Assembly: GCF_900112585.1 (NCBI RefSeq)
Contig: NZ_FOLY01000001.1
Location: 62,001 to 126,000 of the forward strand
Direction: 5' to 3'
DNA from: Kushneria avicenniae
GTDB taxonomy: Bacteria > Pseudomonadota > Gammaproteobacteria > Pseudomonadales > Halomonadaceae
DNA: 64,000 nucleotides
The number at the start of each line of letters is the position of its first letter. Position 1 is the stretch's first letter. Positions 4,045-57,961 of the stretch are shown piece after piece. The translations under genes were made by a program, and so were the position numbers. A model generated the notes under the pieces. The model was given only the letters and a program-made list of their open reading frames with translations, searched no databases and had not been told where the DNA came from.

Positions 4045-5421
4045 CTACCGGGTATCGGCGATCTGTGAGGCGGATTCTACCGCGTCTTCTTCGGTAGCCT
4101 GACGCTCGGGCAGAATCAAATGCATCAAAATGGCCAGCAGGCCGCCCGTGGTGATGGAAGAGGACAGCACGCTCTGCAAGAGCTGGGGGAGCCCGGCAAG
4201 CACTTCGGGCACCAGCTCAACGCCCAGTCCGCCGCCCAGAGAGAGCGCGATAATCATGACCCGCTTGCGCGTCATGCGCTGCTCGGCCAGCATCCGAATG
4301 CCGGAGACGGCGATCAGGCCAAACATCAGGGTCGTGGCGGCGCCCAGCACGGGCTGTGGAATGGACTGTAATATCGCCCCCATGGCCGGAATCGACCCGA
4401 GAACGATCAGAATACCGCCTACAAAAAGGCCGATATGGCGGCTGGCAACGCCGGTCAAGTGAATAATGCCCGTGTTCTGACTGAATGTGGTGTTGGGGAA
4501 GGTATTAAAGATGCCGGCCAGCAGGGAGTTAAAGGCGTCGCCCAGTACGCCACCACGAATGCGCTTCTGATATTCAGGGCCGCTGGTGGGCAGATGTGAC
4601 GCTCGCGACGAACCGGTCAGATCGCCAACGGTCTCGATCGCGGTAATGGCAAAAATGAAGGCCACCGGAATAAAGGCCGCGAGGTCGAAGCCCAGTCCAT
4701 AGCGCAGCGGCTGAGGGAACTGAAAAAGCGGGGCATTTGCCACACTGCTGAAGTCGAGTCGACCCATCAGGGCAGCGGCCACGCAGCCTGTCAAAAGCCC
4801 GACAAACACCGAGCCGACGCGCAGCATGGGATGGCGACTGAGCTGACAAGCCAGCACGGCCCCGATCACGATGACTGCCAGCAGCAGATTGATCGGGTCA
4901 CCCGGAGATTCGGCGCCGTGGCCCCCGGCGATATCGGTGACGCCGACGCTGATCAGGCTCAGACCGATCAGCGTGACCACAACGCCGGTCACGGTTGGTG
5001 TGATCACGCGTTTGAGATGGTGCAGAACGCTGCCCATGGCCATCTCGATCAGGCTGCCGGCGATGCATATACCGAACAGTACCCCCAGCACTTCATGATC
5101 GGAAGCGCCGCGTTCGCGGGCAATCAGCCCTGCCGAAATCAGGGCCGCCACAAAGGAAAAGCTGGTGCCCTGCACACACAAAAGCCCAGAGCCCAGCGGA
5201 CCTATACGCTGAGTCTGAATCAACGTGCTGATGCCGGATACCAGCAGCGCCAGACTGATCAGATAGGGGGCTTCATTTTGCAGACCCAGCGCGCTGGTCA
5301 CGATAATGGTCGGGGCGATGATGGCCACAAAGCAGGCCAGCACGTGCTGGAAGGCCACCAGAAAGGCGGTATGGAACGGCGGACGGTCGCCGTGTCGAAA
5401 GATCAGCTCGTTGTCATGCAT
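4045..5421 (-). CDS. NCS2 family purine (xanthine/uric acid) permease
   Basis: This is an inner-membrane nucleobase:cation symporter of 458 residues. From the chosen ATG (5421) it begins MHDNELIFRHGDRPPFHTA, which aligns with the opening of E. coli XanQ-type permeases (LIFELEDRPPFHQA). Family signatures seen are ETVGDLTGSSR, with the conserved Glu and GD of NCS2 proteins, and FSQNTGIIHLTGVASR. Multiple hydrophobic helices cover the protein. A longer frame from 5571 would overlap guaD by 68 bases and adds a sequence not typical of the family, so the internal start is preferred. It lies 82 bases downstream of guaD on the same strand. Substrate (xanthine, urate or guanine) is inferred from guaD and hiuH next door. 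Confidence 0.88.
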   Translation of the reverse strand: MHDNELIFRHGDRPPFHTAFLVAFQHVLACFVAIIAPTIIVTSALGLQNEAPYLISLALLVSGISTLIQTQRIGPLGSGLLCVQGTSFSFVAALISAGLIARERGASDHEVLGVLFGICIAGSLIEMAMGSVLHHLKRVITPTVTGVVVTLIGLSLISVGVTDIAGGHGAESPGDPINLLLAVIVIGAVLACQLSRHPMLRVGSVFVGLLTGCVAAALMGRLDFSSVANAPLFQFPQPLRYGLGFDLAAFIPVAFIFAITAIETVGDLTGSSRASHLPTSGPEYQKRIRGGVLGDAFNSLLAGIFNTFPNTTFSQNTGIIHLTGVASRHIGLFVGGILIVLGSIPAMGAILQSIPQPVLGAATTLMFGLIAVSGIRMLAEQRMTRKRVMIIALSLGGGLGVELVPEVLAGLPQLLQSVLSSSITTGGLLAILMHLILPERQATEEDAVESASQIADTR

Positions 5422-53844: not shown

Positions 53845-53933
53845 TTGCAATCCCCTGTGCCTGTCTTCATGTAGGTGTAAAACGTCCTTCGTGACGCTTT
53901 CCGCTGCTCCACCATCCTGACCATCGACTACGC

Positions 53934-53946: not shown

Positions 53947-54115
53947 CCCGTCCATCGGCCAGCGCGTGCGTGGTGGTTCCGGAGTATTTCAACCTCATCG
54001 CTATCTGAAGCGCCTCGGATATGTACAATTTTTCCCTTAAGAGTTAATTTCTTTTAAATTATTATTTAATTTAGTTAGTAACAATACGACTGAGTGTAAT
54101 ATGGGAATTTCAACG

Positions 54116-54469
54116 CTATATTCCTTTGCCCGAGCTTGCCTTTATTCTTGATAAGGCTAATTTTGTACGTTTATATTCGTTAAAATATTCTTTATATTCT
54201 TCTAAAGTGCCTAGCATTTCCTGTTCAAATTCCTTATAGGATTCTTCTGTTTCAGCATCAAAATCACTGTAAATAGCTTCAAATTTATCTATGTGCTTCT
54301 CAATAGTGTTTAGCTCAAATTCTCTATATTCTTGGCTATTAATGGCTTTATCAGAGATGTAATAGCTTGTCCTGAACTTTTGCTTATAATGATCATTTGC
54401 GCCTGATAATTGTAAGTAGACTTTTTCAAAAAACTTAAAGCTGTCAAGTTCTCTGTGTATATATAACAT
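54116..54469 (-). CDS. Acidic helical protein in the AT-rich island, unrecognised
   Basis: A 117-residue, AT-rich, acidic frame, predicted largely helical, for example YKEFEQEMLGTLEEYKEYFN. It overlaps the end of the membrane-protein frame by 26 bases in the +1 register. The AGG of its only candidate ribosome binding site (AAAAGGG) sits one base from its ATG, which is too close, so independent initiation is doubtful. It may instead be the distal part of one gene broken, or read through, at AAAAGGG. Codon use and composition match the island, not the host. No family was recognised. Confidence 0.5.
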   Translation of the reverse strand: MLYIHRELDSFKFFEKVYLQLSGANDHYKQKFRTSYYISDKAINSQEYREFELNTIEKHIDKFEAIYSDFDAETEESYKEFEQEMLGTLEEYKEYFNEYKRTKLALSRIKASSGKGI

Positions 54470-55448
54470 CCCTTTTAGTGTTTTCGTGTAGCTGGATTAT
54501 TGAAACCCGCGCAGAGTTAATATTGAAAAGTTTGGTTATAATTGATGTGGTCTCGCATCTGCCAAATGAAAGAATTTGATTTATAATCGAAGAGAATAAA
54601 TGTTCTGATTTACTTAGGTCGTAAGCATTTATACCTGTATTCCTTCCGTGAAATATTACATCTCCAGTTTTAAGCGTACTTTTAGGTTCGCAGCCTAATA
54701 GTGAGTGTAATCTTATATAGTAATTCACATCAAACTCTATTGGTTCAAGTTCGCTTTCCGGTATCCATTTTTTTCTTTTTTCAATTAGATAGCCTAGATT
54801 TGGTTTTTCTTTCAGTTCGGTATTTTGTAAATCGATATCAGTTTCTATATGATCAAACGTGTTTTTAGGGAAAGCCATTTTATATAGCTTTTCTTTATCT
54901 TTTAACACAAAGGTTTTGTTTCTTGAGTTTTCAAAATTTTCAAGCATTTCGAAGAACATTTTCTTGTGATGCATAAAGAATTCAAAATTTAAAGTTCTTG
55001 CCTGTTGCTTGTTTATTTTTTCCTGTGCAGCAAGATTTTGTTTGAACGCTTTGTCTTGTTTTTTAAGATATAGTAGTGTTCCTATTACTGAAAAAGCAGT
55101 GACAAGGGTGAATAGTCCCGAGAGCAAAGTTCCAAAAGTAGACCACTTTTCAATGTCGGTAAGTGGGTTCAGCATTTCGCCAAAAGTGAAGTTATTTGAA
55201 ATTACGTAAAAGGCTGAAGTTACTATCGCAAAAGCGAAGGCACTAACAATAATTAAGCCAAATGCTCTTTCTTTTGTTATAATATTGGACGGCTTAAATG
55301 CCGTTTTTTTAAAAAAGTTAAAAACTATCGAAGATGCTTTGTTAGTTTTCTTTCTCAGCTTTTTAGCTAGCAAATATGATTGGCATCCCATTGCGAAAGA
55401 GACTAGGGAACATGCAAAAATACCAATAAAAAAAGCTGTAAGACTCAT
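54444..55448 (-). CDS. Three-helix membrane protein of the AT-rich island, possible defence effector
   Basis: A 334-residue protein. Helices are at about 4-22, 62-83 and 105-128, followed by a coiled-coil segment (about 130-150) and a soluble domain starting NFEFFMHHKKMFFEMLENFE, then KLYKMAFPKNTF. ATG 55448 has GAGAGGTG at good distance. The membrane-helix pair, then an F--HHKxF motif, resembles from memory the membrane effectors associated with some retrons and abortive-infection genes; no reverse transcriptase is nearby, so this is a guess. Base composition is strikingly AT-rich, which indicates transfer. The C-terminal end is VIYTQRT, in the overlap. Confidence 0.6.
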   Translation of the reverse strand: MSLTAFFIGIFACSLVSFAMGCQSYLLAKKLRKKTNKASSIVFNFFKKTAFKPSNIITKERAFGLIIVSAFAFAIVTSAFYVISNNFTFGEMLNPLTDIEKWSTFGTLLSGLFTLVTAFSVIGTLLYLKKQDKAFKQNLAAQEKINKQQARTLNFEFFMHHKKMFFEMLENFENSRNKTFVLKDKEKLYKMAFPKNTFDHIETDIDLQNTELKEKPNLGYLIEKRKKWIPESELEPIEFDVNYYIRLHSLLGCEPKSTLKTGDVIFHGRNTGINAYDLSKSEHLFSSIINQILSFGRCETTSIITKLFNINSARVSIIQLHENTKRDVIYTQRT

Positions 55449-55509
55449 TTTCACCTCTCTATTTTTTAGCATTTCCTCATGCCTGAGTCGCAACATCAAG
55501 TAGACAATG

Positions 55510-55541
55510 AAAAAACCCGGCACGAAGGGAACGTAGCCGGG
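55510..55541 (-). terminator. Minus-strand intrinsic terminator upstream of the island gene
   Basis: On the minus strand: CCCGGC / GCCGGG with an inner ACG / CGT pairing, loop TTCCCTT, then six T. It would stop a leftward transcript about 60 bases before the island gene start. Confidence 0.6.
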
Positions 55542-55613
55542 CTGAAAGGGTGGGGAAGTGTATTCACACCATTCGAGTGCGTCAGGAAGTCCCCCGGCGA
55601 CCTGTTACCTATG

Positions 55614-55626
55614 TTATCGGCAATAA
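55614..55626. repeat. Right copy of the 13-base repeat flanking the island
   Basis: TTATCGGCAATAA, one mismatch from the left copy at 53934-53946. Together they bracket the AT-rich segment. Confidence 0.3.
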
Positions 55627-55680
55627 TTCAGGCCACCTTCAATAATTAAGTAAAATCTAACGTTTTCACTTTTTGCGGGA

Positions 55681-55700
55681 TACTGTTTAAATGTACAGTA
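55681..55700. promoter_or_regulatory. LexA (SOS) box upstream of uvrB
   Basis: TACTGTTTAAATGTACAGTA is a near-perfect gammaproteobacterial SOS box: CTG, 10 bases, CAG, with TA on both outer sides as in the E. coli consensus. It is 231 bases before the uvrB ATG, and a terminator lies between. uvrB is a LexA target in E. coli. Confidence 0.9.
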
Positions 55701-55702
55701 AT

Positions 55703-55867
55703 CGTGTGAGAGTTCTAAACGTTCGAATAGTGAAGGGCAGAAGAGGACACAAAAGGCAGCGTGGTCTAAATTATGGGCACACATGAGACGCCACAGCAGC
55801 CAGTCACGAACAGGTGAGATTCTGGCATAGAGTGGAACGCTTAAAAGCCCTGCGTCGGGGCTTTTTT
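55703..55867 (+). ncRNA. Possible SOS-controlled short transcript or uvrB leader
   Basis: The interval from the LexA box to the plus-strand terminator is about 165 bases. It has no ORF with a good ribosome binding site; one 14-codon frame (ATG about 55774) and one Arg-rich 31-codon frame (ATG 55691, inside the box) are present but unsupported. It may be a small RNA, or a leader with an attenuator that RNA polymerase must pass to reach uvrB. The proposal depends on promoter position, which is uncertain. Confidence 0.3.
55843..55867 (+). terminator. Intrinsic terminator between the LexA box and uvrB
   Basis: AAAAGCCC and GGGCTTTT pair around a 7-base loop, with a run of six T (55862-55867). 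It lies 64 bases before the uvrB start codon, inside its leader. Confidence 0.8.
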
Positions 55868-55930
55868 CATACGCATCAACCGCTTAAGTTTATTCATTAT
55901 TTCTTTACATGTTACCTGCACGGAGTGCGC

Positions 55931-57961
55931 ATGAATCGTGAGTTTCGCATTGCCTCCGACTACAAGCCGGCAGGCGATCAGCCGGCGGCCATCGATGGGC
56001 TGATCAAGGGACTGGATGCCGGGCTGGCGCATCAGACCCTGCTGGGGGTCACGGGCTCCGGCAAAACCTTCACCATGGCCAATGTGGTCGAGCGTCTGCA
56101 GCGCCCGACCATCGTCATGGCACCCAACAAGACACTGGCGGCGCAGCTCTATGGCGAGTTCAAGTCGTTTTTTCCCGACAACGCCGTCGAGTACTTTGTC
56201 TCCTATTACGATTACTATCAGCCCGAGGCCTACGTGCCTTCGTCGGATACCTTCATCGAGAAGGACGCCTCGGTCAACGATCATATCGAGCAGATGCGCC
56301 TGTCGGCGACCAAGGCGCTGCTGGAGCGTCGTGACGCCCTGATCGTGGTGTCGGTCTCGGCCATCTACGGTCTGGGTGATCCGGATCAGTATCTGAAGAT
56401 GCGTCTGCATTTCAATCGCGGTGAGCTCATCAACCAGCGCGATTTCCTGCGTCGGCTGGCGGAGCTTCAGTACACCCGCAACGACACGGACTTTCGGCGC
56501 GGTACCTATCGCGTGCGGGGCGATGTGATCGATATCTTCCCGGCCGATGCTGATGATGAAGCGGTGCGCGTGGAGCTTTTTGATGACGAGATCGACACCA
56601 TCAGCCTGTTTGATCCGTTGACCGGAGAAGTGCGCGGCAAGGTGCCGCGCATGACGATCTACCCCAAGACGCACTATGTCACGCCGCGAGAGACGATTCT
56701 CGGAGCGATCGAATCAATCAAGGAAGAGCTGGCGGAGCGGCTCAAGTATCTGCGCGATCATGACCGTCTGGTCGAGGCGCAGCGCCTTGAGCAACGCACG
56801 CTCTACGATATCGAGATGATGCTGGAACTGGGCTACTGCAACGGGATCGAGAACTACTCCCGCTATCTCTCCGGTCGTGATCCAGGGCAGGCGCCGCCGA
56901 CCTTTTTCGATTACCTGCCCGACGATGCGCTGGTGTTTATCGATGAGTCTCACGTCAGCGTTCCGCAGGTAGGCGGTATGTACAAGGGGGATCGTTCGCG
57001 CAAGGAAACGCTGGTCGAATACGGTTTCCGTTTGCCCTCGGCGCTGGATAACCGCCCGATGAAGTTCGAGGAGTGGGAACTCATCCTGCCGCAAACCGTT
57101 TTCGTCTCGGCAACGCCCGGGCCCTACGAAGAAGCGCACGCTGGTCAGGTGGTCGAGCAGGTGGTGCGTCCGACCGGACTTGTCGACCCCGAGATCGAGG
57201 TGCGTCCTGCCAGCACTCAGGTGGATGATCTGCTCTCCGAGGTGAAGGCCCGCGTGGAAGTGGGCGAACGGGTGCTGGTCACGACCCTGACCAAGCGCAT
57301 GGCGGAGGACCTGACCGACTATCTCAGCGAGCACGAGATCCGGGTGCGCTATCTGCACTCCGACATTGATACCGTCGAGCGTGTCGAGATCATTCGTGAC
57401 CTGCGTCTGGGCAAGTTCGATGTGCTGGTAGGGATCAACCTGCTGCGCGAGGGGCTGGACATTCCGGAAGTGTCGCTGGTGGCCATTCTGGACGCTGACA
57501 AGGAAGGCTTCCTGCGTGCCGAGCGTTCCCTGATCCAGACCATCGGGCGTGCGGCTCGTAACGCTCACGGCAAGGCCATTCTCTACGGGGATCGCATCAC
57601 CGGCTCGATGCAGCGGGCCATGGACGAGACCGGACGCCGACGCGAGAAGCAGCTTGCCTTCAATGAGCAGCATGGCATTACGCCGCGCACCATCACCAAG
57701 AACGTCGCGGACATCATGGAGGCGGCGCAGGCCCCCGGAACTCGTCGCGGCAAGCGCAAGGACGAACGGCAGGTAGCCGAGTCGGAAGGTCAGTACACGC
57801 CTGAAGCGATCGGCCGAATGAGCCTTGATGATGTCAACCGTGAGATCAAGAAGCTCGAGGATCGCATGCATGAAGCCGCTCAGAACCTTGAGTTCGAGAC
57901 CGCCGCGTCGCTGCGCGATCAGATGCAGACGCTCAACGCGCGCCTGATCGAGCTGAAATGA
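55931..57961 (+). CDS. uvrB: Excinuclease ABC subunit B
   Basis: UvrB is the damage-verifying helicase-like core of nucleotide excision repair. The 676-residue protein (E. coli 673) has Walker [15 protein letters not shown], the beta-hairpin region [12 protein letters not shown], helicase motifs FIDESHVS and RAARNAHGK, and a C-terminal UVR domain ([21 protein letters not shown]). ATG 55931 has GGAG upstream and gives the family-like N-terminus [20 protein letters not shown]; the frame from 55814 adds 39 unsupported residues and includes the terminator. A LexA box lies upstream. Confidence 0.97.

Follow-up and report, generated by a model that had tools for sequence, protein, structure and literature searches.

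A LexA box flanked by terminators in a stretch of inserted DNA upstream of uvrB in Kushneria avicenniae

In the window, i.e. the whole stretch of 64,000 nucleotides analysed here, uvrB starts with an ATG after GGAG and lies beyond the right terminator, as a first reading of the letters (the sequence-only reading) had it; the UvrB domains of its product were confirmed (Table 1). The DNA in front of it is interrupted by an AT-rich insert. Native intergenic DNA ends at 54007 and resumes at 55913, the junctions reading CGCTATCTG, insert, TACCTGCACGGAGTGCGCATG, and the uninterrupted counterpart in the genus genomes G001 and G003 is CGCTACCTGCACGGAGTGCGCATG. Between the insert and the uvrB ATG there are 18 bp, and a repeat of 6 bp with one mismatch flanks the insert. 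The LexA box, both terminators and an "island" to their left all belong to this one insert of 1,905 bp. The sequence-only reading, which saw a box between the island and uvrB, had the elements and their order right, but not that they form a single insert. At an E value of 0.001, the sole match to the insert itself in a sample of 201 genomes of the family was 94 bp in G001, and phage and plasmid records gave no match. No transposase was seen among its ORFs. Tn7-type ends (TGT...ACA with a 5-bp duplication) were rejected by eye, as the flanking 5-mers differ. The insert looks like mobile DNA.

Table 1. Features upstream of and including uvrB (positions in the window)
Feature	Position	Strand	Basis
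Native uvrB promoter TTGCAA-17-CATGTA, weak -10	53845-53873	+	genus comparison
TATCTG, left copy of an imperfect direct repeat, possibly from the target site	54002-54007	+	empty site CGCTACCTGCACGGAG in G001, G003
Insert, 1,905 bp, GC 35.3% (window 57.2%)	54008-55912		empty-site comparison
117-aa ORF, probably C-terminal part of cargo gene in another frame	54116-54469	-	side-by-side reading
Cargo gene, membrane protein, 334 aa from ATG 55448 (start chosen)	54444-55448	-	homologs in G582, G077
Structured RNA element R1, ends in left terminator	55493-55651	-	5 copies, compensatory changes
Left intrinsic terminator, 3' end of R1	55510-55541	-	-16.9 kcal/mol, z -4.98, T6
LexA box TACTGTTTAAATGTACAGTA	55681-55700	+	exact search, shuffles, genome count
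Predicted short RNA, box to right terminator	55701-55867	+	start point inferred
Right intrinsic terminator	55843-55867	+	10-bp stem, -12.9 kcal/mol, z -2.73, T6
Weak promoter candidate TTCATA-17-TTTATT	55866-55894	+	score 7.22; 19% of shuffles match or beat it
Right direct repeat TACCTG, then native uvrB leader	55913-55918	+	empty-site comparison
uvrB	55931-57961	+	Pfam UvrB, UvrB_inter, UVR

The box, present in a single copy in the window by exact search, shows the characteristics of a LexA operator, i.e. the CTGT-N8-ACAG palindrome, an A/T-rich centre and TA flanks, with all 12 palindromic positions intact. It encloses a TG-extended -10-like TTAAAT on the + strand (55687-55692) and a -10-like TACATT on the - strand (55695-55690). 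The full TACTGT-N8-ACAGTA occurred in none of 100 shuffles of the window and none of 3000 dinucleotide shuffles of the insert, and only twice in the whole 3.6-Mb genome, the uvrB-side box being one of the two. In this full form the box proposed earlier is significant. The loose core CTGT-N8-ACAG alone is not: 0.63 sites are expected per 64 kb, and the genome holds 50 of them versus 46 for the reversed control pattern.

The second perfect box (C11:32271-32290) lies 13 bp before a radical-SAM-like gene, so named by eye. Host lexA (C8:350905, 99.7 bits) is itself directly preceded by TACTGTATACATCAACAATG, a box with two mismatches, and from this position we infer that the host LexA uses boxes of this kind. 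A further strong box at G000 C16:99275-99294 ends 18 bp before another radical-SAM-like gene. By their boxes, both radical-SAM-like genes are likely SOS genes of the host. Between these three host boxes (one at lexA, the others at the radical-SAM-like genes) and the start codons lie 10-18 bp, versus 230 bp at uvrB; from the box to the ATG of the cargo gene it is 232 bp. Such a long distance does not prove that the box belongs to neither gene, since other AT-rich boxes of the host lie about 45 (L100), about 64 (L099) and about 330 bp (L097) before the next ORF.

That the box has terminators on either side was borne out by folding, both forming a hairpin followed by a T6 run. The left hairpin is kept in all five aligned copies of R1. 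A generic terminator scan of 54800-56300 listed no site at all, neither of these two included, where 1.7 were expected in shuffles; we attribute this to the A/T pairs of the stems, which take up the T runs. The region 55701-55875, covering the predicted short RNA, folds at -55.4 kcal/mol (z -2.97, with none of 200 shuffles as low), and both the minimum-energy and the centroid fold retain the terminator hairpin. The longest ORF in this region has 26 aa and none is convincing; by eye, no small hydrophobic peptide ORF of the tisB/istR type and no clear ribosome-binding site were found in the predicted SOS transcript. Rfam gave no match at gathering level over the whole window, and at a relaxed threshold the best scores in the region were 15.6-18.6 bits, far below gathering (rimP, asX2, anti-hemB, MIR4376). 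In viral contigs, the right-terminator pattern had no match. The left one was found in 37 contigs, all rejected on account of one shared coding-like sequence context, perhaps that of an endolysin; five of the 37 matched R1, in the hairpin alone.

On either strand a promoter candidate overlaps the box: TTCACT-16-TTAAAT with TG on the + strand and TTTAGA-18-TACATT on the - strand. Their scores are at shuffle level, 44% and 34% of shuffles being as high, so that promoter direction and activity at the box are predicted only. The best + candidate of the region, TTCAGG-18-TAAAAT (55627-55656), lies upstream of the box, as does TCGGCA-18-AATAAT (55617-55646). RNA starting from these could read through the box, and LexA could act as a roadblock. 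Weak promoter elements nearby, together with the frame-broken cargo gene described below, would fit a box that is a relic in a decaying insert, has no effect and starts no RNA. We consider this rather improbable, given on the other side an intact palindrome, one of the top two matches of the whole genome, and two intact terminators.

The uvrB region was matched in 57 of 58 genomes, and upstream DNA was read for 30 loci, i.e. the window and 29 relatives. None of the 29 has a CTGT-N8-ACAG core within 450 bp upstream of uvrB, the nine other genomes of the genus included, and none of these nine has a run of at least five T in the last 176 nt before the gene. In the comparison of leaders, which the sequence-only reading had proposed, box and terminator are absent from all nine, and the conservation that an attenuator of uvrB would show was not seen. 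A native-type promoter, with a TTG-type -35 and a CATATA-like -10 at 17 bp, lies at -176/-177 in six of the nine. Its counterpart in the window, which the promoter scan ranks low, lies in a region that aligns with G001 at 82%. Cut off by the insert, it is now about 2 kb upstream of the gene, and its transcripts would have to cross the 1.9-kb insert, whose genes point the other way, and get past the right terminator.

Degenerate boxes were surveyed as the best two sites per locus. In one relative of the 29 (L014) a 7-of-8 AT-rich box overlaps the uvrB -10, and in two (L028, L029) 6-of-8 AT-rich half-boxes do; the three come from three other genera of the family and their boxes are partly degenerate. 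The 7-of-8 cores in L003, L005, L007 and L021, GC-richer and off the promoter, were not counted as boxes. LexA may thus have controlled uvrB early on in the family, with the control lost in this genus. This possibility, to which L028 and L029 point, speaks against regarding the present arrangement as wholly new.

How, then, might uvrB be expressed? A promoter independent of LexA between the right terminator and uvrB had been named beforehand as evidence against a link with the box, and the search found a single weak candidate there. Constitutive expression of uvrB from this AT-rich right end of the insert, with the box serving the insert only, is a reading to which we give tentative credence, somewhat short of an even chance. 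The candidate scores 7.22 against a maximum of 7.82 on the + strand of 55400-55945, and the gene has probably inherited its independence of LexA, because the uvrB promoters of the genus have no LexA boxes. On the other hand, the candidate has no A at position 2 of its -10, and 19% of shuffles score as high.

At the opposite extreme, uvrB would have been captured by the SOS response: the promoter at the box would be its main one, termination at the right terminator would be incomplete or relieved, and uvrB would rise with damage. This would give the gene a promoter where the native one is 2 kb off and behind a terminator, and where just one weak alternative lies right of the terminator; in E. 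coli, too, uvrB is SOS-controlled. The K-12 box lies at -94 to -75, ends 74 bp before the ATG and has one core mismatch. LexA boxes upstream of uvrB are common to both cases, but the present one is perfect, is separated from the gene by 230 bp and a terminator, and arrived with the insert. The remark that the SOS promoter of E. coli lies close to uvrB holds well against these distances, and an SOS promoter of that type, with the box in the promoter and no terminator before the gene, is not what we find here. With a T6 terminator of -12.9 kcal/mol between box and gene, boxless uvrB genes in the genus and nothing in the one genome concerned that hints at selection for such a link, we regard such a capture as unlikely.

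The main gene of the insert, here called the cargo gene, has homologs in G582 (33%) and G077 (29%) and no other match in 250 genomes of the family. Each homolog is encoded by one ORF (380 and 394 aa) that runs on beyond the end of the 334-aa ORF of the cargo gene, which is overlapped by the 117-aa ORF with an apparent change of frame near 54444-54469. BLAST gave no match of the 117-aa ORF to the homologs, and its assignment follows from reading the sequences side by side. This frame change may be a real mutation or a sequencing error. Besides the window, more distant profile relatives were found in 8 of 390 genomes of the order and 5 of 321 of the class, with the N-terminal membrane part in common. 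Three of six scanned, out of these 13, have a putAbiC domain (PF16872) above cut-off further along the protein. The cargo protein itself had no significant match in Pfam (PF16872 included), PADLOC or PHROG, none in IMG/VR or PDB, and at most matches far below cut-off in NCBIfam. The G077 homolog was not found in phages or plasmids, and the sole cargo homolog in genome_contigs, from Billgrantia kenyensis, is apparently the G582 locus. The N-terminal membrane part with its W..FG..LSG-type motif is as in the putAbiC-bearing proteins; the domain at residues 178-301 of the relatives, however, is unmatched in the frame-broken cargo protein. These profile matches make the protein a distant relative of the putAbiC (phage abortive infection) proteins. 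A literature search for "putative phage abortive infection" with SOS found no paper. The G077 homolog has a LexA box of its own, TACTGTGTGTGTATACAGCC, which ends 34 bp before its ATG. No LexA box lies within 250 bp of the G582 homolog, and none was found by the ten ORFs scanned among the 13 distant relatives (all but L137, L144 and L147).

To the left of the box lies R1, present in five copies in four of the ten genomes of the genus, that of the window included. The other copies (gene names by eye) lie between comF and yihE in G001, just after comM in G001 and G003, and by a comM fragment in G005, the latter at the edge of a prophage-like region. All sit in inserted DNA that is missing at the same place in other genomes: the intergenic DNA at comM in G001 and G003 exceeds that in G000, G004, G005, G008 and G009 by about 230 bp, the comF-yihE gap of G001 is about 495 bp longer than that of G003, and comM of G005 is interrupted. 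The consensus structure pairs 94.2% of cells versus 87.3% in shuffles, and 6 of 21 pairs carry compensatory changes versus 2.6 in shuffles, for five sequences, two of them near-identical, with the structure derived from the same alignment. Folded as a single sequence, 55507-55610 does not stand out (z -1.14). A model built from these same five copies found no further strong copy in 121 genomes of the family (strict filters, 24 candidates scored per genome among the genomes listed), the next best scoring 31.8 bits. Five weak matches of 22.9-31.8 bits (G008, G072 twice, G087, G058) resemble ordinary terminators and were not counted, nor were short DNA matches, at E 0.001-0.05, from further genera of the order. 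The R1 core pattern was absent from genome_contigs, and of seven sub-threshold Rfam matches at four R1 loci none fell on R1. The R1 terminator of G005 is followed, some 35 bp on, by a perfect LexA box, on the opposite side of R1 compared to the window, and the comF locus of G001 has a one-mismatch LexA core. At the same cut-off, no LexA box was found in the 6-kb loci of the two comM copies.

Taken together, we lean, by a small measure, to the reading that the operator is the insert's own and makes one or more short SOS-controlled RNAs, with uvrB depending on read-through, on a weak promoter at the right end, or on both. LexA would repress promoters that overlap the box. Upon DNA damage, a structured rightward RNA of about 170 nt would be made and stop at the right terminator, and a leftward RNA would run through R1 and stop at the left terminator, before the cargo gene. 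If the RNAs from the box stop at the flanking terminators, the left one before the cargo gene, the box would be the insert's own operator, and it probably is since one of the two close cargo homologs, that of G077, has its own LexA box. uvrB would be expressed via incomplete termination, via a weak promoter that is independent of LexA and lies at the right end of the insert, or both; fed by incomplete termination, it would be at most weakly SOS-responsive.

For this reading we counted the absence of the CTGT-N8-ACAG core at uvrB in 29 of 29 relatives, the empty sites, the G077 box, the box by R1 in G005, lexA with its box, the folds, and the short distances (10-18 bp) from box to start codon at lexA and the two radical-SAM-like genes. 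Against it we counted the shuffle-level promoters, the + candidates upstream of the box, the boxless G582 homolog and ten distant relatives, the frame-broken cargo gene, the mismatched 6-bp repeat, the absence of a transposase and the long distances of other boxes. Capture by the SOS response and LexA-independent expression of uvrB are the two extremes of the reading preferred here, so that the confidences given for them overlap with its own. The options put forward earlier, a short RNA or read-through with attenuation, are still the right pair. Insertion is likelier than an evolved uvrB attenuator, because box, terminators and island are one insert and the genus promoter has no LexA box.

A more far-reaching version would be a divergent SOS switch producing two structured non-coding RNAs. 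The leftward one would include R1, taken as an undescribed family of RNAs on mobile elements of the genus that controls the accessory gene of these elements, and the insertion would have brought uvrB under the same switch. As a whole we hold this to be improbable.

The arrangement is unusual, its parts are known. In E. coli, the tisB/istR and dinQ/agr loci have a LexA-controlled short transcript and a neighbouring small RNA. A LexA-controlled short transcript is what we predict here too, but the toxic membrane peptide ORF of those loci has no evident counterpart at the uvrB box. Read-through from E. coli nemRA is reported to raise glyoxalase I (PMC3739934). There, as possibly here, a stress-inducible promoter feeds a downstream protective gene; the nemRA case was studied experimentally, whereas the uvrB case is an option read from DNA alone. 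In the literature searched, work on read-through and SOS small RNAs offered analogies alone, and the search for uvrB with a LexA box in Halomonas found no paper.

At this locus inserted DNA has come between a core gene of DNA repair and its promoter, with a LexA operator offered in exchange, a clean natural case for which the nine insert-free genomes of the genus can act as controls. One can test here how a uvrB free of LexA joins, or fails to join, the SOS response, and the locus has brought to light a small covarying RNA element in inserted DNA.

Some further observations concern the other R1 loci. The extra comF-yihE DNA of G001 (L031:6515-7009), which holds the R1 copy, also contains TTTACCCCA-like repeats (by eye), and from its sequence looks like the remnant of an integrated element. 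In G005 (C26, about 756.8-789.6 kb; L107/L108/L073), comM is split after residue 281 and its 3' part lies beyond the region, which contains ORFs resembling, by eye, a Tn7-type transposition set and metal transport genes, followed by a large serine-recombinase-like ORF and phage-like genes. A 129-aa ORF (L073:4585-4974, - strand) overlaps the perfect LexA box at 4887-4906 and has an internal ATG just after the box. Halomonas phage QHHSV-1 matches this ORF at 38% over about 76 residues, and in L075 the cargo homolog has next to it a small ORF (74-310, - strand) that by eye resembles the 129-aa one.
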